Assembly (NCBI RefSeq): GCF_000378305.1
Contig: NZ_KB899538.1
Span: 1,334,001 to 1,398,000, forward strand
Source: Thioalkalivibrio sp. ALJ12
GTDB lineage: Bacteria > Pseudomonadota > Gammaproteobacteria > Ectothiorhodospirales > Ectothiorhodospiraceae
Length of the DNA stretch: 64,000 bases
Direction: 5' to 3'
In this document: one piece after another, positions 1 to 18,018 of the stretch
Layout of the letters: every line of letters starts with the position of its first letter
How positions within the stretch are numbered: the first letter of the stretch is position 1
The notes under the pieces: generated by a model
The model's input: the letters and a program-made list of their open reading frames with translations, nothing else
Told to the model about the DNA's origin: nothing
Database searches by the model: none
Made by a program: the position numbers and the translations under genes

Positions 1-519
1 CGGGTCGATGGTGCGGATGACGTAGTCCAGCTCGGGCGCCGCCTCGAAGGCCTCCAGGTGCTGGCGCCCGGTAGTGATGAGCACGCGCCGGCCGAGGCCG
101 GGGAGCGCGCAGGCGGCGGCCTCCAGGTCGGGCACGCGCAGCCAGTGATCCCCGGGGCCGGCCTGCCACGGCGGCCGGGTCAGCCGGGCCAGGGGTACGC
201 CGGCGTGGCGCGTGGCGGCGACGGCATTGGCCGAGATCTGCCGCGCGAACGGGTGGGTCGCGTCCACCAGGGCGTCGACCGCGTGTTCGTGCAGCCAGGC
301 GGCAAGGCCCTCGGCGCCGCCGAACCCGCCGGTGCGCCGCGGCAGTCGCGAGGGCGCGGGCCTGCGCGTGCGTCCGGCCAGCGACACGGTGGCGTGCAGC
401 CGCGGGTGGCCGTCCAGCAGCGGTTCCAGCGCCGCGGCCTCGGTGGTGCCGCCCAGCAGCAGGATCTGCCGCGGGCGCGCCGCCCGGGGGCTGGAGTCAG
501 GAGATGAACGGGAGCTCAT
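1..519 (-). CDS. cobK: Precorrin-6A reductase (partial, C-terminus beyond window)
   Basis: NAD(P)H-dependent reduction of the corrin precursor precorrin-6A in cobalamin synthesis (CobK/CbiJ family). The leftward frame opens at ATG 519 and stays open to base 1, giving 173 residues. Visible features are an N-terminal nucleotide-binding stretch ILLLGGTTEA (about residues 19-28), the family motif DATHPFA (about 92-98) and RVLITTGRQH further on. The family is about 240-260 residues, so roughly the last third is missing. Its start codon overlaps the start region of the divergent cobL, so the two share one tiny regulatory interval. Assignment is by motifs and by neighbouring cob genes. Confidence 0.88.
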   Translation of the reverse strand, partial: MSSRSSPDSSPRAARPRQILLLGGTTEAAALEPLLDGHPRLHATVSLAGRTRRPAPSRLPRRTGGFGGAEGLAAWLHEHAVDALVDATHPFARQISANAVAATRHAGVPLARLTRPPWQAGPGDHWLRVPDLEAAACALPGLGRRVLITTGRQHLEAFEAAPELDYVIRTIDP

Positions 520-1759
520 GAGGATGACCAGTCTAGCCACGAACGAGGAGCGAGCGCCATGGCTGAATATCGTCGGCGTGGGCGCGGAGGGGCTCGCCGG
601 GCTGGCCCCGGATGCCCGCATGGCGCTGGACACGGCGGCGACGGTGATCGGCGGCGCACGGCATCTGGAGATGCTGCCGGAGCGGCCGGGGCAGGAGCGC
701 CTGGTGTGGCCGTCGCCGCTGGAGACCGCGCTGGACTGGATCGAGGCGCGCGCCGGGCAGCCGCTGTGCGTGCTCGCCAGCGGCGACCCCTTCTGGTTCG
801 GGGTGGGCGCGACCCTGATGCGGCGTTTTCCGGCCGCGCAGACCTGCGTCTGGCCGGCGCCCTCGGCGTTCAGTCTGGCCGCCGCGCGCATGGGCTGGCC
901 GCTGCAGCAGACCCGCTGCCTGTCGGTGCACGGCCGGCCGATGGAGGCGCTGCGGCCCTGGCTGCATGACGGCGCGCGGCTGCTGATCCTGAGCCGCGAC
1001 GGGGATACCCCGGCGGAACTGGCGCACTGGCTGACCGGGCTCGGCTTCGGCGATTCCACCCTGACCGTACTGCAGTCCCTGGGTGCGGACCGCGAGGCGG
1101 CGGTCCGCGAGCGCGCCGGGGCCTGGCCGGAGGTCGCGATCGAGGCGCTGAACACCGTGGCGCTGGAGTGCCGGGCCGATCCGGCGGCGCAGGTGCTGGC
1201 GGCCAGTGCCGGCCGGCCGGAGGCGCAGTTCGAGCAGGACGGACAGATCACCAAGCGCGAGGTGCGGGCGGTGGCGCTGGCCCTGCTGGCGCCCGGACGC
1301 GGCGAGCGGCTGTGGGACGTGGGCGCGGGCTCCGGTGCCATCGGCATCGAGTGGATGCTGGCGGATCCGGCCAACACCGCCGTGGCCATCGAGCCGCGCG
1401 CGGAGCGCCTGGAACGCATCGCGCGCAACGCGAGCACGCTGGGGGTGCCGACGCTGCGGTGCATCCACGGGCGGGCGCCGGGGGCACTGGGAGACCTGCC
1501 GCCACCCGATGCGATCTTCATCGGTGGCGGGCTGACCACGCCGGGGCTGGTGGAGCACTGCATCGGCCAACTGCGCCCGGGCGGGCGGCTGGTCGCCAGC
1601 AGCGTGACCGTGGAAGGGGACGCGGTGCTGGCGGCGGCGCACGAGCGCCACGGCGGCGAGCTCACGCGGATCAACGTCAGCCGCGCGGAGCCGCTGGGCG
1701 GCATGGCCGGCTGGAAGCCGCTGCGGCCGGTGACCCTGTGGTCGCTGCGCCGGAGCTGA
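518..1759 (+). CDS. cobL: Precorrin-6Y C5,15-methyltransferase (decarboxylating), CbiE-CbiT fusion
   Basis: Methylates C-5 and C-15 of precorrin-6Y and decarboxylates the acetate side chain to give precorrin-8. The 413-residue product has an N-terminal CbiE-type tetrapyrrole methylase (from [11 protein letters not shown], about residue 16) and a C-terminal CbiT methyltransferase beginning near residue 235 (QITKREVRA), with SAM motif [13 protein letters not shown] near 267. This is the fused CobL form. ATG 518 is used; ATG 524 is also possible and is better spaced from GGAG at 511-514. The frame is open back to 212 but the upstream part does not resemble CobL. It overlaps the divergent cobK start and the following cobE. 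Confidence 0.93.
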
Positions 1760-2217
1760 GGGAAACGCCGAGCGGGGCGCGTGTCCGGGTGACCCCCGGG
1801 GTCGGCTTCGCCTCGGCCTGCACGGCCGGCGAGCTGGAGGCATTGGTCCGCGAGGTGCTGGCCGAGGCGCACGCCGTGTTGCGGGCGGGGGGCGGCGAGG
1901 CGATCGAGATCCGGCAGCTGGCGGCCCCGGGGCACAAGGGCGACAGCCCGGTGCTGTGGACGGCCGCGCGCGACCTGGAGCTGGAGCCGGTGTTCGCGTC
2001 GGCGGCCGCGCTGGCCGCGCGCGACGCTGCCTTGTCCACGGACTCGGCGCGCTCGCGTGCCGTCGCCGGGGTCGGTTCGGTGGCGGAGGCGGCGGCGCTG
2101 GCGGTGGCCGGCGACGGGGCGCGCCTGCTGCTGCCGCGGCGGCTCTCGGCACGGGCGAGCTGCGCGGTGGCCGTGCGGACGGTGAACGGGACAGACGGGA
2201 ATTTCGAGGAGTTTTGA
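1738..2217 (+). CDS. cobE: Cobalamin biosynthesis protein CobE / CbiG C-terminal domain
   Basis: Small protein of the CobE/CbiG-C family. In aerobic cobalamin producers it accompanies the methyltransferases, and the anaerobic homologue CbiG opens the ring lactone. Recognised by the N-terminal [20 protein letters not shown] and the internal [13 protein letters not shown] and [11 protein letters not shown] stretches. The start is uncertain: GTG 1738 (159 aa, overlapping cobL by 22 bp) is given, and GTG 1789 would start closer to the conserved segment. Its TGA shares bases with the ATG of cobM (TGATG at 2215-2219), so translational coupling is likely. Confidence 0.78.
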
Positions 2218-2981
2218 TGACGGTTCATTTTGTCGGAGCGGGGCCCGGTGCGGCCGATCTGCTGACTTTGCGCGGGCGCGATCGTATCGCGGCCTGCCCG
2301 GTATGCCTGTATGCCGGTTCGCTGGTGCCGGAGGCGGTGCTGGAGCATGCCCCGGAGGGGGCGCGCGTGGTCAACACCGCGCCGCTGACGCTGGACGCAA
2401 TCATGGAGGAGATCGAACGCGCCCACGCGGCGGGCCAGGACGTGGCGCGCCTGCACTCCGGCGATCTTTCGGTCTACAGCGCGCTGGGCGAGCAGATCCG
2501 TCGGCTGGAGGCGGCCGGGATCGATTACAGCATCACGCCCGGCGTGCCGGCATTCTCCGCCGCCGCCGCGACCCTGGGGCGGGAACTGACGGTGCCGGAG
2601 GTGGCGCAGTCGGTGGTGCTGACGCGCACGCCGGGACGGGCGTCCTCCATGCCGGAGCGCGAACGGCTGGCGAGCTTTGCCGCCACCGGGGCGACCCTCG
2701 CGATCCACCTGTCGCTGCACAATATCGAGACCGTGGTCGAGGACCTGCGGCCGCACTATGGCTGCGACTGCCCGGTGGCGATCGTGTTTCGCGCCAGCTG
2801 GCCGGACGAGAGCGTGGTGCGCGGTACGCTGGGGAATATCGCGGAACGGGCGCAGGCCCTGACCACACGGCGCTCGGCGCTGATCCTGGTGGGCCCGGCG
2901 CTGGACCCGGGCGATTTCCGCGACAGCGCGCTGTACGACCCGGCGCATGTGCGCCGTTACCGCGGCATGGACGGGGACTAA
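2217..2981 (+). CDS. cobM: Precorrin-4 C11-methyltransferase
   Basis: SAM-dependent methylation of C-11 of precorrin-4 (CobM/CbiF). The 254-residue protein has the tetrapyrrole methylase N-terminus [18 protein letters not shown], the family segment [15 protein letters not shown] and the [13 protein letters not shown] motif typical of this clade. ATG 2217 lies directly on the cobE stop and is preceded by GAGGAG near 2205. It is the last gene of the rightward cobL-cobE-cobM run and converges on the cytochrome c' gene. Confidence 0.95.
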
Positions 2982-3758: not shown

Positions 3759-4874
3759 TCAGAAGCGGAACTGGTGCTGCAGGTGCAGCTCCCAGTCCGA
3801 GGTGTCGGTGTCGCGGTCCAGCCACATCAGTTGGGTCTTGTGCCGCTGGCCACGGTGATACCAGTTGAGGCCGGCACCCCATTCACGCTGCCAGCGCTCG
3901 TCAGTGCCAAGATCGTCGCCTGCGTCGTGGCGCAATACGGCGTGGCGCGCGGCGAACTCCAGTCCCTCCACCGGCAGCGACTGCGCCAGTTCCAGTTCGG
4001 CCCCCAGGTCGTGGTAGCTCGCGGTGCGGTCGGGGGAGACATCGCGGCGGAAGGCCGCCAGCGACAGCGAGGTATGGGCGAACTTGACCACCGCGTCGGC
4101 GGTGGCGGTGATCCAGTCGGCGCGTTGGTTGGCCACCGTGTCTTCGATGCCGCGGCTCCAGTCGCGCAGGTGGTTGCGGCTGGCGGCCTGTACGCCGGCG
4201 CCCAGGGCGACGGTGCGCTCCACGGCCTGGCCTAACGTGGTGTTGTCACGTGGGACTGCGCCGACCGGGGCCCACGCGCCGCGCGCGCTGAACAGGTGGC
4301 CGGATGTGGAGGGGCGATCGTCGCGCTGATCCAGACGCCCGCGACCGTCAAACACGCCGATGGCCCATGCCCGGTTGTCGCCGGCGCCGCCCAGCAGGGC
4401 GATACCGGTGTCGCGGCCGGCCGGAACCTCGAACTGGTTGCCGGCGATGCTCAGTTCGGTGAACAGGCGGTTGGGTCCGCCGATATCCCGCGACAGGCCG
4501 AAGGGGACCGTAAACTGGCCAGCCCGCAGGCCCAGGTGTTCACCCAGTGCGTACTGCAACCAGATGTCGCGCATGGACAGCTCGCCGCTGCTGAAATCCG
4601 GCTGCAGGCGGAAGCTCAGATCGGGGTGGAACAGGGTGCCCGAGGTGTCCAGCCAGGCACGACGGAAGTCGAATTCGCTGCTGGAGCCATCCGGGTCTCG
4701 TTCGTAGCTGTAGCGGCCCTGGATCAGCGGATCCAGGGTGACCTGCAGGCCGTCTTCCGCGTCGCCGAATTCGAAGCCGGCTTGTGCCGGCGCGATGCCC
4801 GCGGCCGTCATCAGGCACAGGGTGGCCAGGGCCGGGACGGCATGCTGTCCCGGTCGGAGATGGGTATGGTTCAT
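3759..4874 (-). CDS. OprO/OprP-type outer-membrane porin
   Basis: 371-residue outer-membrane beta-barrel. It has a signal peptide ending near PAQAGFEF, alternating hydrophobic strands throughout (for example FDFRRAWLDTSGTL, LRAGQFTVPFGLSRD) and a terminal phenylalanine (HLQHQFRF), the BAM recognition signature. The segment RAGQFTVPFGL is typical of phosphate-selective porins O and P; actual substrate preference is unknown. ATG 4874 is chosen because it follows GGGAG with about 10 bases spacing and starts the signal peptide. Upstream lies a cobalamin riboswitch, so expression should respond to B12. Confidence 0.85.
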   Translation of the reverse strand: MNHTHLRPGQHAVPALATLCLMTAAGIAPAQAGFEFGDAEDGLQVTLDPLIQGRYSYERDPDGSSSEFDFRRAWLDTSGTLFHPDLSFRLQPDFSSGELSMRDIWLQYALGEHLGLRAGQFTVPFGLSRDIGGPNRLFTELSIAGNQFEVPAGRDTGIALLGGAGDNRAWAIGVFDGRGRLDQRDDRPSTSGHLFSARGAWAPVGAVPRDNTTLGQAVERTVALGAGVQAASRNHLRDWSRGIEDTVANQRADWITATADAVVKFAHTSLSLAAFRRDVSPDRTASYHDLGAELELAQSLPVEGLEFAARHAVLRHDAGDDLGTDERWQREWGAGLNWYHRGQRHKTQLMWLDRDTDTSDWELHLQHQFRF

Positions 4875-5013
4875 TGTTGGGTTGCTCCCTTGGACGCGCG
4901 ACCCCGCACGCCGTGGATGAAACGACGCCGGAAGCTGGACAGGGAGCAGGGGAGGCCGGGCGATGCGAGCACGCCGGACTGGCCCGCTCGGCCGCCCACC
5001 GCGGCGTCGGGTG

Positions 5014-5222
5014 TCGTCCAGGCCGGTCTCCGGACTCGCGAAGTGGATGCGCGATGCATCCAGGGCGGATCGCCTTCCCGCGGGCATCCCGGGGATGCGC
5101 CGCAGTGGCATTGGATCCGCCCGTCTCCGCCTACCGTTGCGGGGGCAGTGCCGGCCTTGCGAATGTCGATTCGCGCACCGGCTTCCCGATTATCCCCGGC
5201 GGCTGAGCGCCGGGGCACCTAG
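5014..5222 (-). promoter_or_regulatory. Cobalamin (B12) riboswitch
   Basis: Read leftward, the RNA shows the conserved cobalamin riboswitch blocks in order: GGTGCCCCGG, GGGAAGCCGGTG, the B12 box GGCACTGCCCCCGCAACGGT, GCCACTG, GGGAAGGCGA and the closing AGTCCGGAGACCGGCC. The aptamer ends about 140 nt before the porin ATG, which leaves room for an expression platform. Ligand-bound RNA normally lowers expression of the downstream gene. What is unusual is the gene controlled: a porin plus cytochrome c', not btuB or a cob gene. Confidence 0.95.
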
Positions 5223-5326
5223 AGAGGGGCGAACCGTAATGGAGGGAAAAGGGGGGGTCAAGTTTGTCCGGGTATCCCGGGAAACGGTGTAGTGGGGGCG
5301 AACCCGGCTCCCCTGGAGGCTGATAA

Positions 5327-9094: not shown

Positions 9095-12000
9095 TCAGGC
9101 GAGCTGCGGGTTTTGCTGCAGCGCCTGCTCGGATGGGTGTCGTCGGGGGATGATGCAGTGGTTGATGCGCAGGAGTTCGCGTTCGCTCCACTGGCGCCAG
9201 ACGTCATCGCGAGCAAAGCGGGCATAGTCGAGCAGGGTTAATCGTTCGATATTCGGGTTGCCGTGGTCGTGGGCCAGACGTCGTGCCCGCTCCAGCTCCT
9301 GCCAGCCCTCGTTGTCGGTGCCGTCGCTGCGTTCCAGTAGCGCATGCGCCCGCAGTCGCCGGATGGCGGGTTCGAAGCCGTGATCCCCTCGTTTCAGGCA
9401 GTTGGTCAGTGTATCGGTGGCGATCTGCAGGCGTTCCGAGGGCTTGGCGCCGGTTGCATGCAGGGCGTCGAGCAGGAAGAGCTGAAAGATGGTGCTGACG
9501 CCATCCATGATGTGGCGCAATGCATCTGCCTGTTCCCGGAGTGGCGCCACAGCCGAGGGGTCGCCCTGGCGCGCGAGGGCCCAGTGCTGTAGTGCCAGGC
9601 CTGAGGCCCGCCAGAGGGGATAGTCATAGTCCTCGGCAATCGCGAGCGCGCGGCGGGCGGAGGTCAGGGCTTCGTCAGGGTCGTCGGCGAAGAAGCCAAG
9701 CGCTGCCCGGAAGGCGTAGACAAAGGCCTCGGTGGGGCGGTGTTCCAGCGCTGTGGCCTCGGCGCAGGCCGCATCCATTTCATCCCACGCGCGAGCGTGG
9801 TTGCCGAAGAAGAGGAGCGTCCAGGCCATGAAGCCGCGTGAGCTGATCGCAGGGTTTTCGGTGTGGCGCGCGACCAGGTGTGGGTGGTCGTCTTCGCGGT
9901 ACAGGGCGAGCGCCTGGGTCTGGTGTTCCAGCGCCAGCGGCAGCTGGCCACTCCAGAAGTGCGTGTTGCCTTGTACATAGTGAGCGGCGATCCGTAGCAG
10001 GCGGTCGTTCGACTGCTCTGCGACCTGTTCCATGTCGTTGGCCAGGCGGTGGGCTTCATCAAAGCCATGCCAGGATCCGGCACCGTGCCAAAGTCCCCAG
10101 AGCACACGGAAGTACTGCACCGCGTCTCGCTGGGGCGCGGTGATGCCCAGCGTACGCTCAAAGATCGCGTGCACCGTGCGCGAGCCGTATCCCAGCAAGG
10201 CGAGGTTTGAGGCACCCAGTCCGCCCAGGGCTCGCTGGGTCTGCGCATCGCGTTCTTCCGACGGTTCCCGCTCACCCAGCTCGCGATCGAGGCAGCTGAG
10301 CGCGTCTTCGAAGTAGTGCGAGGCCTCCAGCAGCATGCCCCGGGCGAACGCCGCCTCTCCCGCCTCGAGCCAGGCGGGCACCGCCTCCTCCACACGCCCG
10401 GCGTGATAGAGATGGCTGGCCACCTGGCCCCAGTCGATACTGCTTGTGCCTCCATCGTCACGCAGGAGATCGGCCAGGCGGCCGTGAAGACGCGTTCGTT
10501 CGGCCACCAGCATGGATTCGTAGGCGGCCTGCTGAAACAGCGCGTGACGGAACCGGTAGCGCACACCGTCCAGGACGCCGACCGGCTCGATGAATCCGCG
10601 GCCGGTGAGGCGGCTGAGCTGGCGGCGGATCACGTCGGCCGGCTGCTCCAGGAGGTGACTCAGGATGCGCGTATCAAAATCGCGTCCGATTACGGCCGCG
10701 GCGTGGGCCAGGTCACGCGCGGTCCCGGTTTGTTCCAGACGTGCCACCAGCAGATTAGCCAGCCCGGGCGGCAAGGTGTCGGGCAGGGTCCCGGTGCGCG
10801 CCGCTTCGAGGGTGTAGCGCGTCAGCTCCTCGAGAAAAAGCGGGACGCCCTCGCCGCGCTCGATGAGTTGTTCGCGCAGGTGTGTCGTCAGGCGATGCTG
10901 GGTGTCGCAACGCTCGATGAGTTCATGTGCAGCCTGGTCGGGCAGGGCGTGCAGTCGCAGGTGCTCGAGCGGGATATCGCGCCAGTTGGAGCGAAAACTC
11001 ATGCGGGCCGTGAGCAGGGTCAGCAACGGGCGGTCATGCAGGCGCTGATACAGGCGTCGGAGGAATTCGGCCGTGCCGGAATCCATCCAGTGCAGGTCGT
11101 CGCAGATCAGCAGGATGGGGCCTCGTTGGGCTCGGCGCCGGGCGAGTTCGACGAGGACGTCAATGATGTGATCCCGGTCGAGACCCTGCGCGGCCAGTGC
11201 TTCGAGGCCGTTGCTGTCCGGGTGTGTGAGCCAGTGCGCCAGGGCGTCGGCGATGTCCGCATCGAGTGACCGAGCGGTGCCGAGGGCACGTGCCAGTCGG
11301 CGCTGGCGGCTGGCATTCATGCTGCCGAGCCCAAGCCAGGTGGCGAACGCTTGACGCACGGGCGTCAACAAGTGCCGCGCGCGGTCCTCGCGGCACTTCA
11401 GCAGGAAGCGCGAGCGCGCCTGGCCGCGGATGCGCTCGTCGAGGTGTCGTGCGAGACGGCTCTTGCCCAGGCCGGCTTCACCCTGAATCAGTACATAGTG
11501 TGGTTTGTGATGTTCGAGTGTCTGGCGCCAGATCATGTGCAGGCGCTCAAGCTCCTCTGTGCGTCCTGCCAGAGGAGTGAGGCCACCTCGGGCGTGCTGG
11601 GCATCGACGCGATCCAGGGGGCCGGGGTCGCCGGTGACGCGCTGGCTTCCTTCGAGTACTCCCGTGCCTGCGTGAGGGCTGAACAGAAAATACCCCGAGA
11701 CGCGCTGGTGCACGGATGGCGAGACCACGAGCGTCCCCGTGTCGGTCGAACGTGCCAGAGCCTGTGCGCGCTGGCTGAGCAGGCCAGCGGGGTCGGGGGT
11801 GTCCGGGTCGACCCCGGTTACGATGAGGTCGGTATCGACGCTTATGCGCAGCTCGCAGTCGCTCGGGGCTGTTTGCAGGACTTGCCAGGCGGCGTGGACG
11901 GCATCGACGGTGGCCTGCTCGCGACCTGCAGGATAGCCAAAATAGGCGAGGAGGCCGCTGCCAGGGGCCCGAACCACATGCCCCCGATGGTTCAACAGGA

Positions 12001-12916
12001 CCAGGTCCAGTTGCTCCAGGGTGTGTTGCATGCGTTCATTCTGCAGCTCGACGTCAAGCTCGGCGTCCGCCTGGACCAGGCAGGCCACAACGGTGACCCG
12101 GCGGCGCTCGGCACGCAGAGAGGCTGTTTCGGGTGTGGCAGTAGAAGACACCGTTGCCGGTGTCTTTGGTGTTGGGGCCAGGATTTCGTCGCGGGTTCGC
12201 ACCAGCAGGTGGCCAGGGCCATCGACCGCCTGGCGCTCCAGGCGGCCAAAGTGTTCCAGCGCCCGCTCGCGGTTACCCATGCCGGCCAAGGTCAGCATGA
12301 CCAGGCGGTGCAGGGCCTCTTCATGGGGCTCCATCGCCAGCAGTCGCTGGAGTTCGGTGAGCAGGGCTTCGGCGTCTGCGGAGTGGCAGAGATCGTCGAG
12401 ATTTTCCTCGATCAGGAGGAGCAGCTGGGACCAGTAGTGGTCGCGCTGTGTCTGTGCCCAGGCGGCGAGCTCGGGGAGATCCTGGAGTGCGCGCACGGGA
12501 TCAAGAAAGGGGCCATGGTAGTGGCGGATACTCGCGAGAGTTTGTGCGGCCAGTTCGTTGCAGCTCAGGTGGCTGCGGTCGGCCCGCAGGCGGTGCAGGG
12601 CGAGGAAATCGATCTCGGTGCCGGGCTGAAGCTGGAAGTGGACGTAGCGCGGTGTGGCCTCGAGCAGGGCGGCGGGCGGATCCGGCAGTTGCCGCCGCAG
12701 TTGAAATAGCCCCTGGCGCAGGTTGACACGTGCGCTGTCGCTGTCCAGCTCGGGCCAGAACAGGTGCGCCAGTTCCTGGCGTGGCACGCGCCGTGGGCAT
12801 TCGGCCGCCAGGTAGGTCAGCAACAGCCCCAGCTTGGTGCCGGACAGGGCGGGCACATCACGGCCCTCGACCCGCACGCCGACTGTGCCGAAGGTCGTGA
12901 TCTCCAGATGAGCCAA
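9095..12916 (-). CDS. Very large BTAD / cyclase-like / AAA ATPase / TPR regulator
   Basis: About 1273 residues. The order is: winged-helix and BTAD transcription-activator region (about 1-240; LEITTFGTVGVRV, QGLFQLRRQL, then helical repeats); a cyclase-homology domain (about 270-430; GHVVRAPGSGLLAYFGYP) lacking the metal-binding aspartates of active class III cyclases; a STAND/AAA ATPase (Walker A GEAGLGKSRLA near 478, Walker B ILLICDDLHWMD); and a long TPR-like C-terminus. There is no C-terminal LuxR helix-turn-helix, so DNA binding would be N-terminal as in SARP/AfsR proteins. TTG 12916 is chosen because it follows AGGGGGGA and starts the conserved region; the frame is open to TTG 12952. 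Targets and ligand unknown. Confidence 0.8.
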   Translation of the reverse strand: MAHLEITTFGTVGVRVEGRDVPALSGTKLGLLLTYLAAECPRRVPRQELAHLFWPELDSDSARVNLRQGLFQLRRQLPDPPAALLEATPRYVHFQLQPGTEIDFLALHRLRADRSHLSCNELAAQTLASIRHYHGPFLDPVRALQDLPELAAWAQTQRDHYWSQLLLLIEENLDDLCHSADAEALLTELQRLLAMEPHEEALHRLVMLTLAGMGNRERALEHFGRLERQAVDGPGHLLVRTRDEILAPTPKTPATVSSTATPETASLRAERRRVTVVACLVQADAELDVELQNERMQHTLEQLDLVLLNHRGHVVRAPGSGLLAYFGYPAGREQATVDAVHAAWQVLQTAPSDCELRISVDTDLIVTGVDPDTPDPAGLLSQRAQALARSTDTGTLVVSPSVHQRVSGYFLFSPHAGTGVLEGSQRVTGDPGPLDRVDAQHARGGLTPLAGRTEELERLHMIWRQTLEHHKPHYVLIQGEAGLGKSRLARHLDERIRGQARSRFLLKCREDRARHLLTPVRQAFATWLGLGSMNASRQRRLARALGTARSLDADIADALAHWLTHPDSNGLEALAAQGLDRDHIIDVLVELARRRAQRGPILLICDDLHWMDSGTAEFLRRLYQRLHDRPLLTLLTARMSFRSNWRDIPLEHLRLHALPDQAAHELIERCDTQHRLTTHLREQLIERGEGVPLFLEELTRYTLEAARTGTLPDTLPPGLANLLVARLEQTGTARDLAHAAAVIGRDFDTRILSHLLEQPADVIRRQLSRLTGRGFIEPVGVLDGVRYRFRHALFQQAAYESMLVAERTRLHGRLADLLRDDGGTSSIDWGQVASHLYHAGRVEEAVPAWLEAGEAAFARGMLLEASHYFEDALSCLDRELGEREPSEERDAQTQRALGGLGASNLALLGYGSRTVHAIFERTLGITAPQRDAVQYFRVLWGLWHGAGSWHGFDEAHRLANDMEQVAEQSNDRLLRIAAHYVQGNTHFWSGQLPLALEHQTQALALYREDDHPHLVARHTENPAISSRGFMAWTLLFFGNHARAWDEMDAACAEATALEHRPTEAFVYAFRAALGFFADDPDEALTSARRALAIAEDYDYPLWRASGLALQHWALARQGDPSAVAPLREQADALRHIMDGVSTIFQLFLLDALHATGAKPSERLQIATDTLTNCLKRGDHGFEPAIRRLRAHALLERSDGTDNEGWQELERARRLAHDHGNPNIERLTLLDYARFARDDVWRQWSERELLRINHCIIPRRHPSEQALQQNPQLA

Positions 12917-13064
12917 CCATCCCCCCTGTCGCAAACGCCGGGCGCATGCCAACGGGCGTCGTCGCCGCTGTTGCCGATGCCCGGGTGGTTATTGCGTGTC
13001 TTGCCCGCGCTGTCTGGCCGCGAGACGAAATCACCCGGATTGTACCGGGATTTGAGGTGCTGGG

Positions 13065-13703: not shown

Positions 13704-13967
13704 TTAGTGCCCGTGGTAGCCCTTGTGCAGGTACTCGACACCCTCGAGGTTTTGCACCTGGATCTCGCGCACCGGGATGAAGCGTGCAGTGCCGGGCCCG
13801 ACGATCTCCTCGGTCACTCGGATGCGGTACGGGGCTTTCGAATTCAGGACCTGCCCGACGTATTGCTTGCCCTCGTGGGTCACGCGTACCGGGGTCGTCT
13901 TGTCGTGGCGGCTGAAGTTGTAGCTAACGCCTTTGGGGTAGTTCAGGTTGCGTTCGGAAAAGGTCAT
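13704..13967 (-). CDS. Small conserved-looking protein at the end of the photolyase operon
   Basis: 87 residues, soluble, mixed charge, with two predicted beta-rich stretches (TPVRVTHEGKQYVGQVL; APYRIRVTEEIVGPG) and a Gly/His-rich end. Family not recognised. Its ATG (13967-13965) overlaps the photolyase TGA in an ATGA arrangement, which implies translational coupling and a role tied to the repair operon. The coupled start was chosen over the longer frame, which would overlap phrB deeply. Confidence 0.72.
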   Translation of the reverse strand: MTFSERNLNYPKGVSYNFSRHDKTTPVRVTHEGKQYVGQVLNSKAPYRIRVTEEIVGPGTARFIPVREIQVQNLEGVEYLHKGYHGH

Positions 13968-15403
13968 GTCTGGGCCTTGCTGGATGACTTGGTTTGACTG
14001 GTTGATGTGTTCTTGATGGCCTCGAAGGCCTCCAATGCGGCCTGGCGGCTGGCTTTCAGGTCGACGATCGGGTCGGGATAGCCCAGGGTGCCGCCGGCGC
14101 CCGGGGCGTGAATATACCGTGTTTCGGTCTTCTTGAGCACCGGCAAAAAGCGTCGCACGAATCGGCCGTCCGGGTCGTATTGTTCCCCTTGGCGTTGTGG
14201 GTTGAAGATTCGGAAATACGGTGCGGCATCGGCGCCGCAGCCACCGGCCCACTGCCAGCCCAGAGTGTTGGAGGCAAGATCGGCGTCGACCAGGGTGTCC
14301 CAGAACCAGCGGGCGCCGTGCACCCAGTGCAGGCGCAGGTTTTTGGTCAGGAAGGATCCTACGACCATGCGCAGGCGGTTGTGCATCCAGCCGGTTTCCC
14401 ACAGCTGGCGCATCGCCGCGTCCACGATCGGGATTCCGGTGCGGCCCTGTTGCCAGGCGGCGAGGTCGGCCTCCGATTCGCGCCACGGGAAATCCTCGAA
14501 GCGCGGGTTCAGGGGCTGTTCCGGCGTGTGCGGGAAGTGATAGAGCACATGGTGCGCAAAGTCGCGCCAGCCGAGTTCGCGCACGAAAGACTCGGGCCCC
14601 TTGTGCTCCAGGCTGATGTTGGCATCGCGCAGGGCGCGCAACACTTGCCGCGGCGAAACCTCGCCAAAATGCAGATGCGGTGACAGCCCGGAGGTGCCGT
14701 CCTGGTCGGGGCGGTCGCGGCTGTCGGCATAGCCTGTGATCGACTGCCCGAGGAACCGCTCCAGGCGTGCCTGGGCGCCGCGTTCGCCGGGTGCCCAGGT
14801 GGCGCGCAGGCCGGCGGCCCAGTCGATTCGGGGCAGCAGTGCCAAGTCGTCGAGCGTCAGGGAGGCCGGTGGTTTTTCGGGCCCCGGCAGGCGAGAAGGG
14901 GCGGGGAGCGGGTCCTGTTCAATCCCGCGCTGCAGGCAGGCGCGCCAGAACGGGGTGAAGACCCTGTACGGGCCGCCCTGGCCGGTCTCGACGTCCCAGG
15001 GCTCGATCAGCAAGGCCGCGTTGAAGCTGCGAACCTCCAGGCCGTCGGCACGCAGCCCGGCCTTGATCCCCTGATCGCGCAGGACGCGGGCCGGTTCGTA
15101 TACGCGGTTCCAGTACACGGCCTCGGCGCCCGTCTCGACGACCAGCTCGCGCAGGGTGTCGAGGCTCGGGCCGGCGCGAACGACCAGAGGGCTGCCGGCC
15201 TTGTTCAGCGCCTCGTTGAGCGACTGCAGGCTGTGGTGCAGCCACCAGTTGGAGGCGGCCCCGGGGGCCCACTGCAGGTCCTCGTCCGGGGCATGAATGA
15301 AGACCGGGATCACGGGCCCGCCACGTTCGGCGGCGGCTTGCAGTGCGGGCTGGTCGGCCAGGCGCAGGTCCTGGCGCAGCCAGACGAGGGTGGGTCCGGG
15401 CAT
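13964..15403 (-). CDS. phrB: Deoxyribodipyrimidine photolyase (class I CPD type)
   Basis: Light-driven repair of cyclobutane pyrimidine dimers using FAD plus an antenna chromophore. 479 residues: N-terminal antenna domain (LVWLRQDLRLADQPAL) and C-terminal FAD domain with TSGLSPHLHFGEVSPR, RELGWRDFAHHVLYH, MRQLWETGWMHNRLRM and the signature NTLGWQWAGGCGADAAPYFR. Start ATG 15403 overlaps the TGA of the upstream FeS-type photolyase (ATGA), so the two are coupled. Member of a four-gene leftward operon headed by a CarH/LitR-like regulator. Confidence 0.95.
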   Translation of the reverse strand: MPGPTLVWLRQDLRLADQPALQAAAERGGPVIPVFIHAPDEDLQWAPGAASNWWLHHSLQSLNEALNKAGSPLVVRAGPSLDTLRELVVETGAEAVYWNRVYEPARVLRDQGIKAGLRADGLEVRSFNAALLIEPWDVETGQGGPYRVFTPFWRACLQRGIEQDPLPAPSRLPGPEKPPASLTLDDLALLPRIDWAAGLRATWAPGERGAQARLERFLGQSITGYADSRDRPDQDGTSGLSPHLHFGEVSPRQVLRALRDANISLEHKGPESFVRELGWRDFAHHVLYHFPHTPEQPLNPRFEDFPWRESEADLAAWQQGRTGIPIVDAAMRQLWETGWMHNRLRMVVGSFLTKNLRLHWVHGARWFWDTLVDADLASNTLGWQWAGGCGADAAPYFRIFNPQRQGEQYDPDGRFVRRFLPVLKKTETRYIHAPGAGGTLGYPDPIVDLKASRQAALEAFEAIKNTSTSQTKSSSKAQT

Positions 15404-16980
15404 CAGAGTCGCTCCCCCTGCTGCAGCCGTTCGCGGATCGCGGCGGCCTGTGTGCGAATGGCCTGAAGGCGTTCGGTGTCCATCTTCTCGATGTGCTTCC
15501 ACTGCAGCGCGGTGCGCGGATGATTCGCGAAGCGTTCGCGGTGGCGATCGAGGAAGTCCCAGTAGAGGGTTGTGAACGGGCAGGCGTCGTCGCCGAGCGC
15601 CTCGGTCGGGCGGTAGCGACACTGTGTGCAGTAGTTGCTCATGCGCTGGATGTAGCGCCCGGTGGCGACATAGGGCTTGGAGGCCATGCGGCCGTCATCG
15701 GCGTATTGCGACATGCCGATTACGTTCGGCATCTCCACCCATTCCACCGCATCGACGTAGATGCCCAGATACCACCCGTGAATGGCGGTCGGTTGTACCC
15801 CCAGCAGCTGCGCGAACAGGCCGGTGACCATCAGGCGCTGGATATGGTGGGCATAGCCAAGACGCAGGGTCTGTCCGACGGCTTCGCGCAGGCAGCGCAT
15901 CTCGGTGTCGGCATCCCAGTACAGCGCCGGCAGGGGTTCCCCGGCTTCGAGCGCGTTCCAATCGTGCCAGCGCTCGCCGAAATGGAAATACAGGCCGCGC
16001 ACGTATTCGCGCCAGCCCAGGATCTGGCGGACAAAGCCTTCCACTGCGGCCAGCGGGGCATGGCCACGGCGCCAGGCGTCCTCCGCTGCAGCGATTACCT
16101 CGCGCGGGCTGAGCAGGTGCAGATTCAGGGCGGCGGACAGGCGGGCGTGGTACAGCCAGGGCTCGCTGCTCCACATCGCGTCCTGGTACTGACCGAAGTG
16201 TGGCAGCCGGTGGGCGATGAAATCGTCCAGCGCCTCGCGCGCATGCGCGGGTGTGACTGGCCAGTCGAAGTCCTCGCAGCGGCCGGGGAGGTCGGGCAAC
16301 TGCTCGGCGACGATCTGGATGACCTCGCGCGTGACGGCGTCGGGCGGGAAGCGTCTCGGTGCGGGCAGTAGGCCGGGACCTTCGCGGCCGAAATGCCCCC
16401 GGTTCTCGGCGTCGAAGTTCCACTGGCCGCCGGCGGGCTCGCCGTCATCCATCAGCACATCAAGACGGCGGCGCTGGTCGCGGTAGAAATACTCCATGCG
16501 CAGTTGCTTGCGGGTCCCGGCCCACTCGGAAAATGCCTCGAGCGATACCAGGAACAGCGGGTCGGGCAGGATGGTGAGCGTGACCCCGGCTCTGCGGCAG
16601 GCCGTCTCCAGCTCGCGCTGTACGCGAACTTCGCCGGGTTGCAGGACCTGAACTTCGCGCGGACGCAGGCGGCGCAGATCGGCCTCCAGGGCGGACTCGA
16701 GCGTGTGATGCCCGTGGTCGCCCAGGGCATGGTAGTGCAGCGCCCATCCGTCCTCGCGCTGGCGCCGGGCGAAGTGGCGCATCGCCGAGAGAAACATTAC
16801 GGTACGGGCGGCGTGCGACGGGACATGCAGCGATTCGCCCGGCACCTCGGCCATCCAAAGGGCGTCGCGGGAGGGGTGCAGGGTTTCCTGCACGGGGTGC
16901 GGCTGGGCGAGCTGGTCGCCGAGTACCACCAGCAATTTCGTCGGGTGGTCGTTCGCGCTCGGAGGTTGGCCGGAGTCCAC
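15403..16980 (-). CDS. Iron-sulfur bacterial cryptochrome/photolyase (FeS-BCP, PhrB-like (6-4) photolyase)
   Basis: 525 residues. N-terminal DUF-type antenna domain (LLVVLGDQL), then FAD-binding region (GWREYVRGLYF; MVTGLFAQLLGVQPTAIHGW; NVIGMSQYADDGRMASKPY). Four cysteines at about C362, C451, C454 and C467 (RCLRE, YCTQC, DACPF) have nearly the spacing of the [4Fe-4S] ligands in Agrobacterium PhrB, a (6-4) photolyase. GTG 16980 is used; no strong ribosome site is visible, but it starts 18 bp after the regulator stop. It repairs the UV lesion that phrB cannot, so the operon covers both main photoproducts. Confidence 0.9.
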   Translation of the reverse strand: MDSGQPPSANDHPTKLLVVLGDQLAQPHPVQETLHPSRDALWMAEVPGESLHVPSHAARTVMFLSAMRHFARRQREDGWALHYHALGDHGHHTLESALEADLRRLRPREVQVLQPGEVRVQRELETACRRAGVTLTILPDPLFLVSLEAFSEWAGTRKQLRMEYFYRDQRRRLDVLMDDGEPAGGQWNFDAENRGHFGREGPGLLPAPRRFPPDAVTREVIQIVAEQLPDLPGRCEDFDWPVTPAHAREALDDFIAHRLPHFGQYQDAMWSSEPWLYHARLSAALNLHLLSPREVIAAAEDAWRRGHAPLAAVEGFVRQILGWREYVRGLYFHFGERWHDWNALEAGEPLPALYWDADTEMRCLREAVGQTLRLGYAHHIQRLMVTGLFAQLLGVQPTAIHGWYLGIYVDAVEWVEMPNVIGMSQYADDGRMASKPYVATGRYIQRMSNYCTQCRYRPTEALGDDACPFTTLYWDFLDRHRERFANHPRTALQWKHIEKMDTERLQAIRTQAAAIRERLQQGERL

Positions 16981-16998: not shown

Positions 16999-17982
16999 TC
17001 AGTGAGGCAGTTGTCGGCTGAGGAGTTCGGCCGCTTCGAGCGGCGCGCCGGGCAACACTTCGATTTCGCGCTGGTGATTCACCTGGGAGAGTTCGAGCGC
17101 CGCGGAACCCGCCAGATAGCAGCGAGGCCCGGGGCGATTCAGGATAGCCTCGATGCGCGGCAGTTCGGGGGAGCGCATCAGCTGCGAGGAGCCGTGGATT
17201 ATCACGGCAGGCGCGGACTGGCGTTTCACCAGCGCCTCAAGGGCCTCGGGGCTGGTCGCGTCAAACAGGGGCAGTGTTTTGAGGCCTCGCCGGGCGCAGG
17301 CCAGTTGCAGGAGCATGCCGCCAACCTGCTGGTGCCCGCCGCCCAGGACCAGGCAAGGAATGGCGGGACCTTCGCAGGCCCGGATCGCTGCGCGCAGCTG
17401 ATCGGCAAAGGCCGCGGTGGCCCAGGCCGCGAAAACCGCCAGGCGAACCTCGCCTTCGGGCGAGTGCCGCGATTCTTCCCGCAGGCGCCGATAGACCTCG
17501 AGAAAGGCGCTTTCATGCACGCCGTTCCAGCCGTGGCGCATAACCAGGCGCGCGTAGGTCCTCTCCAGCTGAGCCGTGTCCAGTTCCGCGGCAGAGGAAT
17601 AGAGCGCCTCGGCCAGTGGGTCGAGCGTGTGAGGGGCGATACCGGGTTTGCTGGTGCCCGTGCGATTGCGGCTGGCGGATGCTTCGGATTGGGTATGCGA
17701 CGAGGGGGGCGGTTCCACCGTTGCGCTTTCGCTGGCCAGGACACGATGGACCTGGGAGACCGGAATCCCCTGATCGAGCAGCTCCAGGATGCGCTTGATG
17801 CGGGCAATGTCGTCTGCGCTGTATAGCCGATGACCCTTGGGGGTGCGCATCGGGCGAATCAGCCCGTAGCGACGCTCCCAGGCGCGCAGAGTGACGTCAT
17901 TGATCCCGGTCTCCGCGCACACGTGGCGGATGGGATAAAGACCTTCCTGTTCGGATGTGCCCAATTGTGTCGCGCTGGCCAT
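16999..17982 (-). CDS. MerR-family CarH/LitR-like regulator of the photolyase operon
   Basis: 327 residues: N-terminal MerR winged helix (YPIRHVCAETGINDVTLRAW, ERRYGLIRPMRTPKGHRLYS), a Ser/Thr-rich linker (about 90-115), a helical bundle and a Rossmann-like B12-binding-type domain. The canonical DxHxxG cobalamin motif is not intact: the matching region reads GGGHQQVGG, and the E-H pair of the CarH bundle is not visible. Light sensing by adenosylcobalamin is therefore doubtful here. It heads the photolyase operon and has three GTACA repeats at exact 11-bp spacing directly upstream. Confidence 0.85.
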   Translation of the reverse strand: MASATQLGTSEQEGLYPIRHVCAETGINDVTLRAWERRYGLIRPMRTPKGHRLYSADDIARIKRILELLDQGIPVSQVHRVLASESATVEPPPSSHTQSEASASRNRTGTSKPGIAPHTLDPLAEALYSSAAELDTAQLERTYARLVMRHGWNGVHESAFLEVYRRLREESRHSPEGEVRLAVFAAWATAAFADQLRAAIRACEGPAIPCLVLGGGHQQVGGMLLQLACARRGLKTLPLFDATSPEALEALVKRQSAPAVIIHGSSQLMRSPELPRIEAILNRPGPRCYLAGSAALELSQVNHQREIEVLPGAPLEAAELLSRQLPH

Positions 17983-17988
17983 AGGTTA

Positions 17989-18018
17989 ATTGTACAGCAT
18001 CTGTACGGATCATGTACT
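17989..18018 (-). promoter_or_regulatory. CarH-like operator (three 11-bp direct repeats) over a leaderless promoter
   Basis: Leftward, GTACA occurs three times at exactly 11-bp steps (plus-strand TGTAC at 17991, 18002 and 18013). CarH-type regulators bind direct repeats of this period. The repeat nearest the gene contains TACAAT (17994-17989), a near-consensus -10; its expected start falls on the A of ATG 17982, so the mRNA may be leaderless. The outer repeat overlaps the -35 position, which suits repression by occlusion. Confidence 0.78.

Follow-up and report, generated by a model that had tools for sequence, protein, structure and literature searches.

The first gene of a photolyase operon in Thioalkalivibrio sp. 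ALJ12 encodes a LitR/CarH-family regulator that has lost its B12 ligands, and it is preceded by three GTACA repeats at exact 11-bp steps that overlap its predicted promoter. The best explanation of this locus is that the regulator is a dark repressor of its own operon, gated by a short LOV protein, a reading that is given somewhat better than an even chance. Counting against it are the location of the LOV gene outside the operon, the weakness of the -35 element and a repeat spacing unlike that of class II LitR operators. Light control of the operon as such is plausible. Positions without a contig label are those of the window, the whole 64,000-nucleotide stretch of contig NZ_KB899538.1 that was analysed.

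Operator repeats

The operator occupies 17991..18017 on the (-) strand, with GTACA cores at 18017-18013, 18006-18002 and 17995-17991. The original prediction described three exact 11-bp repeats; the cores do follow one another at exact 11-bp steps, but only these 5 bp are identical and the 11-mers (GTACATGATCC, GTACAGATGCT and GTACAATTAAC) are not identical copies. The pattern GTACA-N6-GTACA-N6-GTACA occurs once in the window and in none of 100 dinucleotide shuffles. Across the 2.78-Mb genome (6 contigs), the shorter GTACA-N6-GTACA matches 11 times, at 6 separate places, and its reversed control never. With one pyrimidine allowed (GTAYA-N6-GTAYA-N6-GTAYA), 15 of the 47 family genomes contain the triple pattern; every one of the 15 belongs to the genus of the window (control: 0/47). 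An Rfam search gave no match at the operator.

Because TGTACA is palindromic, a pair of copies can be read as either direct or inverted repeats. Half-site asymmetry was counted in copies with at least 4 of the 6 letters of TGTACA, a threshold that 8 copies of repeat 1 did not reach; two of these 8 end in C. The last A (A6) is kept in all 70 counted repeats and the first T (T1) in 51, with 19 losses. For repeats 1 and 2 alone, T1 is lost in 12 of 44 copies and A6 in 0 of 44 (p = 0.0002, with the kinship of the genomes ignored). This asymmetry makes CarH-like, oriented direct repeats more likely than a palindrome, and it is the direct arrangement that the sequences favour. A purely inverted operator is disfavoured on the same count, taken from genomes that share ancestry.

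The CarH repeat consensus is given as nnnnTnnACAn in the available text of PMC9304148 and as nAnnTnnACAn in that of PMC8156234. All three repeats of the operator have the ACA of the former, and only repeat 3 has its T as well. A GTACA repeat does not by itself identify a CarH protein: GTACA as a direct repeat/palindrome is also the binding site of E. coli BluR, a regulator that a BLUF protein releases (PMC3509220, in the part available).

Conservation of the operator

Matches to the regulator are found in 42 of 47 family genomes and in 28 of the 30 within the genus, one of the latter being a weak 63-aa piece (G028). The footprint was built from 26 of these 28 genomes, leaving out the weak piece and a truncated match (G038). 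That the repeats lie over the promoter of the regulator's own gene, as first proposed, is upheld by all 26 usable orthologs, in each of which two or three repeats with exact 11-bp steps lie over the -10 element when TATACA is allowed in two of the orthologs (G013 and G014); strict NGTAYA cores are found in 24. Three repeats are present in 14 orthologs by strict reading and in 15 if TGCACA is allowed, and the remainder have two. A stricter set of half-sites, applied to the 480-500 nt upstream, recovered the 11-bp step for 21 of the 26 regulators. The mean information content is 1.1 bits per column within the operator and 0.23 upstream of it. Because of shared ancestry, these ortholog counts are not counts of independent events.

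Outside the genus, the regulator genes of Ectothiorhodospira (loci L143 and L220) have a single TGTACA only, and the operator is not kept. Pairs of the form TGTACA-N5-TGTATA lie about 2-3 kb from the B12-less LitR genes of these two loci (at 7212 in L143 and 7505 in L220) and of Cocleimonas (L203, at 1925 and 6655). These distal pairs are possible further targets with an 11-bp step. In Arhodomonas (L145), a TGTACA pair is found at a 13-bp step instead.

Promoter geometry

The predicted -10 element, TACAAT (17989..17994 (-)), overlaps the last repeat, and the regulator ATG (17980..17982 (-)) follows it after 6 nt. With TACAAT at 17994-17989 and ATG at 17982-17980, a transcript starting 7 nt after the -10 element would begin with the A of the start codon. 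In all 26 orthologs the -10 position reads TACAAT, TACAGT, TATAGT or TACACT. The gap between this element and the ATG is 6 nt in 21 orthologs and 7 nt in 5, and its letters vary almost freely while their number stays at 6-7. Shine-Dalgarno-like words (GGAG, GAGG or AGGA) were found 4-16 nt before the ATG in none of the 26; in G012 and G022, GGAG lies nearer to the ATG than this range. One ortholog (G013, locus L039) has an in-frame ATG 1 nt after the -10 element, and its geometry was scored from the next ATG, which aligns with that of G014. The earlier suggestion that TACAAT places the start at the regulator's own ATG agrees with both the geometry and the lack of these words. An autoregulatory, probably leaderless promoter is thus well supported at the level of sequence, with a start at the ATG as the simplest reading of the predicted geometry.

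The candidate -35 element, AGTACA (18013..18018 (-)), lies inside the first repeat with an 18-bp spacer and is weak, matching TTGACA at 3 of 6 positions. TGTACA, which has 4 of 6 matches to the -35 consensus, is at this position in 7 of the 26 orthologs. A strict promoter scan reported no promoter here. This miss and the weak -35 would both fit an alternative in which the promoter lies further upstream, the repeats act as a roadblock in the 5'-UTR and the mRNA is not leaderless. Such an arrangement is unlikely, since the distance from ATG to -10 element is held at 6-7 nt in 26/26 orthologs although the letters between them vary, none of the 26 has a Shine-Dalgarno-like word at the usual distance, and the 30 columns 5' of the repeats contain no conserved block.

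The regulator

The regulator (327 aa, 16999..17982 (-)) has a MerR DNA-binding domain at its N-terminus (PF13411, residues 16-84; E-value: 4.1e-17). An AlphaFold2 model made from 26 alignment rows (mean pLDDT 81.3, pTM 0.61) predicts the C-terminal fold of CarH, a four-helix bundle followed by a Rossmann cobalamin domain. Against cobalamin-domain chains of T. thermophilus CarH, the model gives Z-scores of 16.9-18.4 with an rmsd of about 3 and 24% identity. This match is no proof of B12 binding, because the fold is also common to photocobilins (Z 17), the AppA SCHIC domain (Z 15) and MetH (Z 14).

The residues expected to hold B12 are absent. Trp131, Glu141, His142 and His177 of T. thermophilus CarH (L221) are replaced by S, L, A and Q, respectively, and in the alignment neither the Wx9EH residues nor the cobalt-ligating His is kept in any of the 26 genus rows. 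The His177 position, within the ExHx2G motif, is Q or R in 26/26, and a His one residue before it (His217) is conserved in 25/26. The roles of His177, Trp131 and Glu141 in CarH are stated in the available part of PMC10442372, and Wx9EH is described as absolutely conserved in the CarH homologs studied in PMC8156234 (part available). The NCBIfam model TransRegCarH scores 85.9 bits against the regulator, compared with a cut-off of 400.

These losses leave unsupported the original prediction that the regulator is a CarH protein that itself dissociates in light, and CarH membership was rejected on the missing B12-binding residues. A genuine CarH would bind AdoCbl, repress in the dark and fall apart when light breaks the Co-C bond. 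The predicted cobalamin-domain fold (Z of about 18), the 11-bp direct repeats, the cobalamin-related sequences of the window described below and, as a caveat, the His retained beside the His177 position would suit such a protein, but with all four ligand-site residues gone from every ortholog, a CarH score far below cut-off and a motif reported to be invariant in homologs, this identity is very improbable.

The Pfam model of the helical domain, PF02607, gives no match at E-values up to 10 in the regulator or in a control, the homologue of P. mendocina FFL34, and so cannot separate the LitR classes. Its sole match in the genome is a 1309-aa frame, probably methionine synthase. The window also contains a cobalamin riboswitch (RF00174, 93 bits; 5017-5223 (-)) upstream of a porin-like ORF (3759-5111 (-)), and both adjoin ORFs that resemble cobalamin biosynthesis methyltransferases (212-2981 (+)). 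Judging from these sequences, B12 itself seems not to be lacking.

In a quick tree, the loss of the B12 ligands falls on one branch (SH-aLRT 91). The genus groups with Ectothiorhodospiraceae sequences, outside the Pseudomonas/Halomonadaceae clade (99), and the exact placement is unsafe because of several long branches. Nine rows were left out of the tree (seven from the genus, L141 and L142). Among the relatives' loci, 78 of 80 were used; L166 and L192 were dropped, as no ORF was found by motif.

Enzymes of the operon

Directly after the regulator, the operon encodes a 525-aa FeS-BCP photolyase/cryptochrome of the CryB/PhrB family (15403..16980 (-)). This protein has the DPRP domain (PF04244; E-value: 1.4e-68) and four Cys that align with CryB, at the positions of the cluster cysteines of the FeS-BCP family. 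It is about equally near to 3zxs, which we take to be R. sphaeroides CryB (1.2e-140), and to the (6-4) photolyase PhrB (4dja, 4.5e-135). The second enzyme is a DNA photolyase family protein of 479 aa, probably of CPD type (13964..15403 (-)); its ATG, at 15403, shares bases with the stop codon of the gene before it (TGATG). Its nearest PDB entry is 4u63, a 'DNA photolyase' (3.8e-137) that is presumably a class III CPD photolyase. Plant cryptochromes come next (1u3c, 1.7e-105), ahead of E. coli photolyase (1dnp, 1.7e-84), and no NCBIfam model that the protein matched reaches its cut-off. CPD repair by this enzyme is likely from its sequence.

The original prediction was of two photolyases for the two main UV photoproducts. 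Two photolyase-family proteins are indeed encoded, but the division of photoproducts between them is not established, because the FeS-BCP protein resembles CryB and PhrB about equally and the second protein falls nearer to plant cryptochromes than to E. coli photolyase and below the NCBIfam cut-offs.

The second photolyase gene is beside the regulator gene in all 14 relatives' stretches compared and the FeS-BCP gene in 5 of them, the latter count being of adjacency only. A conserved 86-aa ORF directly after the photolyase gene (13704..13964 (-)) is a possible last member of the operon; it follows phr in 6 of the 14 stretches and has no Pfam or NCBIfam match at an E-value of 0.001. Downstream of the operon lies a gene for a 1285-aa BTAD/AAA/TPR regulator (9095-12952 (-)) with a TIGR03903 match below cut-off, which is also in place in L104-L107.

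Operator sites elsewhere in the genome

TGTACA pairs with spacers of 0-30 were sought in the genome and mark 5 places (2 per strand for the reversed control). The spacer is N5 at four of these and N14 at the remaining one, which additionally carries an N5 pair with TGTATA. The exact form TGTACA-N12-TGTACA does not occur in the whole genome. Perfect TGTACA-N5-TGTACA is found at 51 sites in 26 of the 30 genus genomes and once in the other 17 genomes of the family, and its reversed control is absent from all 47.

Six sites are considered to be operators. Site A is that of the regulator/photolyase operon. Site B (C2:456775) belongs to a Tll0287-like gene that adjoins a short-LOV gene. Site C (C1:723030) lies between pntB and priA and is found in 10 genomes, and site D (C1:405746), upstream of cheY-cheA, in 9. 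Site E (C2:569162-569189; L016 4163-4190) has three repeats between a lipoprotein-like ORF and a gene for a PAS-PAS chemoreceptor; it is found in 9 genomes, one of them (G044) of another genus, where it stands at the homologous gene. Site F (C3:157209) lies between DUF3429-folE and a FAD-oxidoreductase-DUF1365-CMAS cluster, which is called UfaM-like on the basis of its CMAS domain and gene order. The names PntB, CheY and CheA likewise come from reading the sequences. A further match at C1:165890 is inside an ORF, looks like chance and was rejected.

Site F is conserved in 25 of the 26 orthologs examined, and the exception, G013, is one mismatch away; L265 and L266 (a second G025 copy, in which the motif was not found) are outside this count. 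It has the form TTTACA-N5-TGTACA-N5-TGTATAA or close to it, and its repeats 1 and 3 include hexamers that could serve as -35 and -10, respectively. In contrast to the near-constant spacing at the regulator ATG, five different distances, ranging from 76 to 81 nt, separate this operator from the GxGxxG motif of the FAD-oxidoreductase. From the recurrence of the operator, the genes beside sites A-F would presumably be under common control.

The nature of these genes bears on what the regulator senses. Sites near priA and before the Tll0287-like gene could point to a stress regulon in which the photolyases are controlled by singlet oxygen, redox state or DNA damage instead of light, and M. xanthus CarA is B12-independent and requires CarS, a protein induced via singlet oxygen (PMC9304148, available text). 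We consider a regulon of this kind, with photolyases, priA and chemotaxis genes, to be improbable: a short LOV gene adjoins one of the operator-bearing genes, and phrB, cryB and ufaM are light-induced under a class II LitR in Pseudomonas. In P. putida these three genes and folE are described as light-inducible and PplR-dependent (PMC9758184, available sections).

Candidate light sensors

As the B12 site of the regulator is gone, a short LOV protein of 147 aa is the most likely light sensor (C2:457625-458065; L015 4626-5069). This protein is a stand-alone LOV domain with the photoactive Cys in DCRFLQG. Its best PDB matches are 'sensory box' proteins (7r5n, 2.4e-58; 3sw1, 4.1e-53), entries that we assume to be Pseudomonas short LOVs. 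Each of the 30 genomes of the genus encodes such a protein, closely related to the Pseudomonas short LOV. Among family genomes from other genera, the regulator is matched in 11 (E-value < 1e-29), and just 6 of the 11 also have a match to the LOV protein (E-value < 1e-60).

The Tll0287-like (DUF3365) gene (L015 3746-4444, on C2) and the LOV gene are neighbours in the loci of 27 of the 30 genus genomes. The operator is found in the stretch read at 18 of the 30 LOV loci and further upstream in G016, and 11 have none (two of these at contig ends). By our own criteria, a terminator-like hairpin lies between the two genes in 23 of the 27 genomes, although a terminator scanner did not list it. This hairpin makes co-regulation of the LOV gene through the operator doubtful, and the LOV gene itself was dropped from the regulon; it probably has its own promoter. 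In agreement with this, transcription of pmSB-LOV is constitutive (PMC9758184, Table 1). In P. mendocina, the B12-less LitR protein PmlR2 is inhibited from binding DNA when it is bound by a short LOV protein activated by blue light (PMC9758184, available sections). This precedent, together with the presence of a short LOV gene in the genome, favours LOV-gated derepression.

A light signal could instead come from a partner other than LOV, with the operon's FeS-BCP/CryB protein or a BLUF-domain protein serving as anti-repressor in the manner of BluF. A CryB-family gene does follow the regulator directly, a BLUF-domain protein is encoded at C3:262727-263017 (L267), and BluF is known to release BluR in E. 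coli (PMC3509220, part available). A partner of either type is nevertheless rather unlikely. Only 5 of the 14 stretches have the FeS-BCP gene next to the regulator (as this is adjacency only, the gene may lie elsewhere), and the 5 kb around the BLUF gene contain no operator-like repeat. The BLUF protein also appears, from its sequence, to end in a membrane segment.

Proposed model and significance

The steps of the preferred model, LOV-gated repression, would be the following. In the dark, the B12-less regulator represses its own operon by binding to the oriented 11-bp repeats, where it would cover the -10 and probably the -35 element and block RNA polymerase. When transcription is permitted, the mRNA would start at or within 1 nt of the regulator ATG and encode the regulator, the FeS-BCP photolyase/cryptochrome and the second photolyase. 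Blue light would cause the short LOV protein to bind the regulator, which would then leave the DNA, as PmlR2 does with PmSB-LOV in P. mendocina. The same operator would govern a genome-wide set of genes that includes the UfaM-like (furan fatty acid) cluster. A more speculative version, to which we give little credence, is that the emptied cobalamin fold docks LOV or, with His217, holds haem, bilin or flavin, so that a non-B12 light signal dismantles a CarH-type assembly on direct repeats and a single operator links DNA repair with replication restart and chemotaxis.

The Thioalkalivibrio regulator is probably a LOV-gated, B12-less LitR protein acting on CarH-type direct repeats. Each of these features is known singly: CarA is a B12-less relative of CarH that acts on CarH-like operators, PmlR2 is gated by LOV and BluR binds GTACA repeats. 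The novelty lies in their combination, in the leaderless autoregulation that is predicted and in the extended set of operators. A literature search that covered these topics in part and was confined to openly accessible papers found no description of the combination, and no title or abstract on Thioalkalivibrio with photolyase or LOV dealt with a light regulon. If the model is correct, the system would be a natural intermediate between the B12-based CarH proteins and the LOV-gated class II LitR proteins, in which the chemistry of the sensor has been replaced and the DNA code kept. It would allow a comparative test of how operator spacing (11 versus 18 bp) and light input evolve, and it predicts a Thioalkalivibrio light regulon of photolyases, furan-type fatty acids, a chemoreceptor and perhaps priA. 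With operator, -10 element and start codon within about 40 bp, it also offers a compact design for light-controlled expression.

Comparison with known systems

The spacing of half-sites differs among relatives. TGTAYA-N5-TGTAYA is found at 12 of 19 B12-type LitR loci compared with 1 of 29 B12-less Halomonadaceae loci, and TGTAYA-N12-TGTAYA at 0 of 19 compared with 9 of 29. The 18 Pseudomonas loci have too few pairs to serve as a control (N12 in 2, N5 in 1, and neither in the P. mendocina FFL34 locus, L199). Of the 10 other B12-less loci, 3 also have N5 (L143 and L220 of Ectothiorhodospira and L203 of Cocleimonas), so the Thioalkalivibrio group is not quite alone in combining B12 loss with this spacing. 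A simple rule of spacing by class is contradicted by these three loci and by those of Pseudomonas. The simple reading of these counts is that N5 is ancestral and that N12 would have arisen in the Pseudomonas/Halomonadaceae branch.

The closest working precedent is the Pseudomonas class II LitR system (PmlR2 of P. mendocina, PplR1-3 of P. putida). It shares with Thioalkalivibrio a B12-less MerR-type LitR protein, TGTACA half-sites, a short LOV protein of the same kind in the genome, and targets that include a photolyase, a CryB-type protein and a UfaM-like cluster with folE nearby. The two differ in operator form, which is T(G/A)TACA-N12-TGTA(C/T)A in Pseudomonas and N5 (an 11-bp step) here; in the LOV gene, which is near the regulator there and elsewhere here; and in promoter P6650, whose start lies 48 nt before its ATG compared with a predicted 0-1 nt. 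The tree also sets the Thioalkalivibrio clade apart from the Pseudomonas/Halomonadaceae clade.

CarH and the class I LitR proteins of T. thermophilus and B. megaterium resemble the regulator in having a MerR DNA-binding domain joined to a cobalamin-domain fold and 11-bp direct repeats over promoter elements. In T. thermophilus, phr is two genes from carH and divergent, and phr is near the regulator here as well. Unlike CarH, the Thioalkalivibrio protein has lost the B12-binding residues, so that no B12 photochemistry is expected, and its operator has a GTACA core with a free first base in two of the three repeats where CarH has TnnACA. In the CarA/CarS system of M. xanthus, CarA is likewise a B12-independent CarH paralogue that uses a CarH-type operator and needs a protein anti-repressor; however, CarS is expressed in light without being the receptor, and the target is a carotenoid operon. 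BluR/BluF of E. coli follows a similar logic, in which a blue-light flavoprotein releases a MerR-like repressor from its GTACA sites, but with a BLUF-EAL partner and ycgZ-ymgABC as the regulon.
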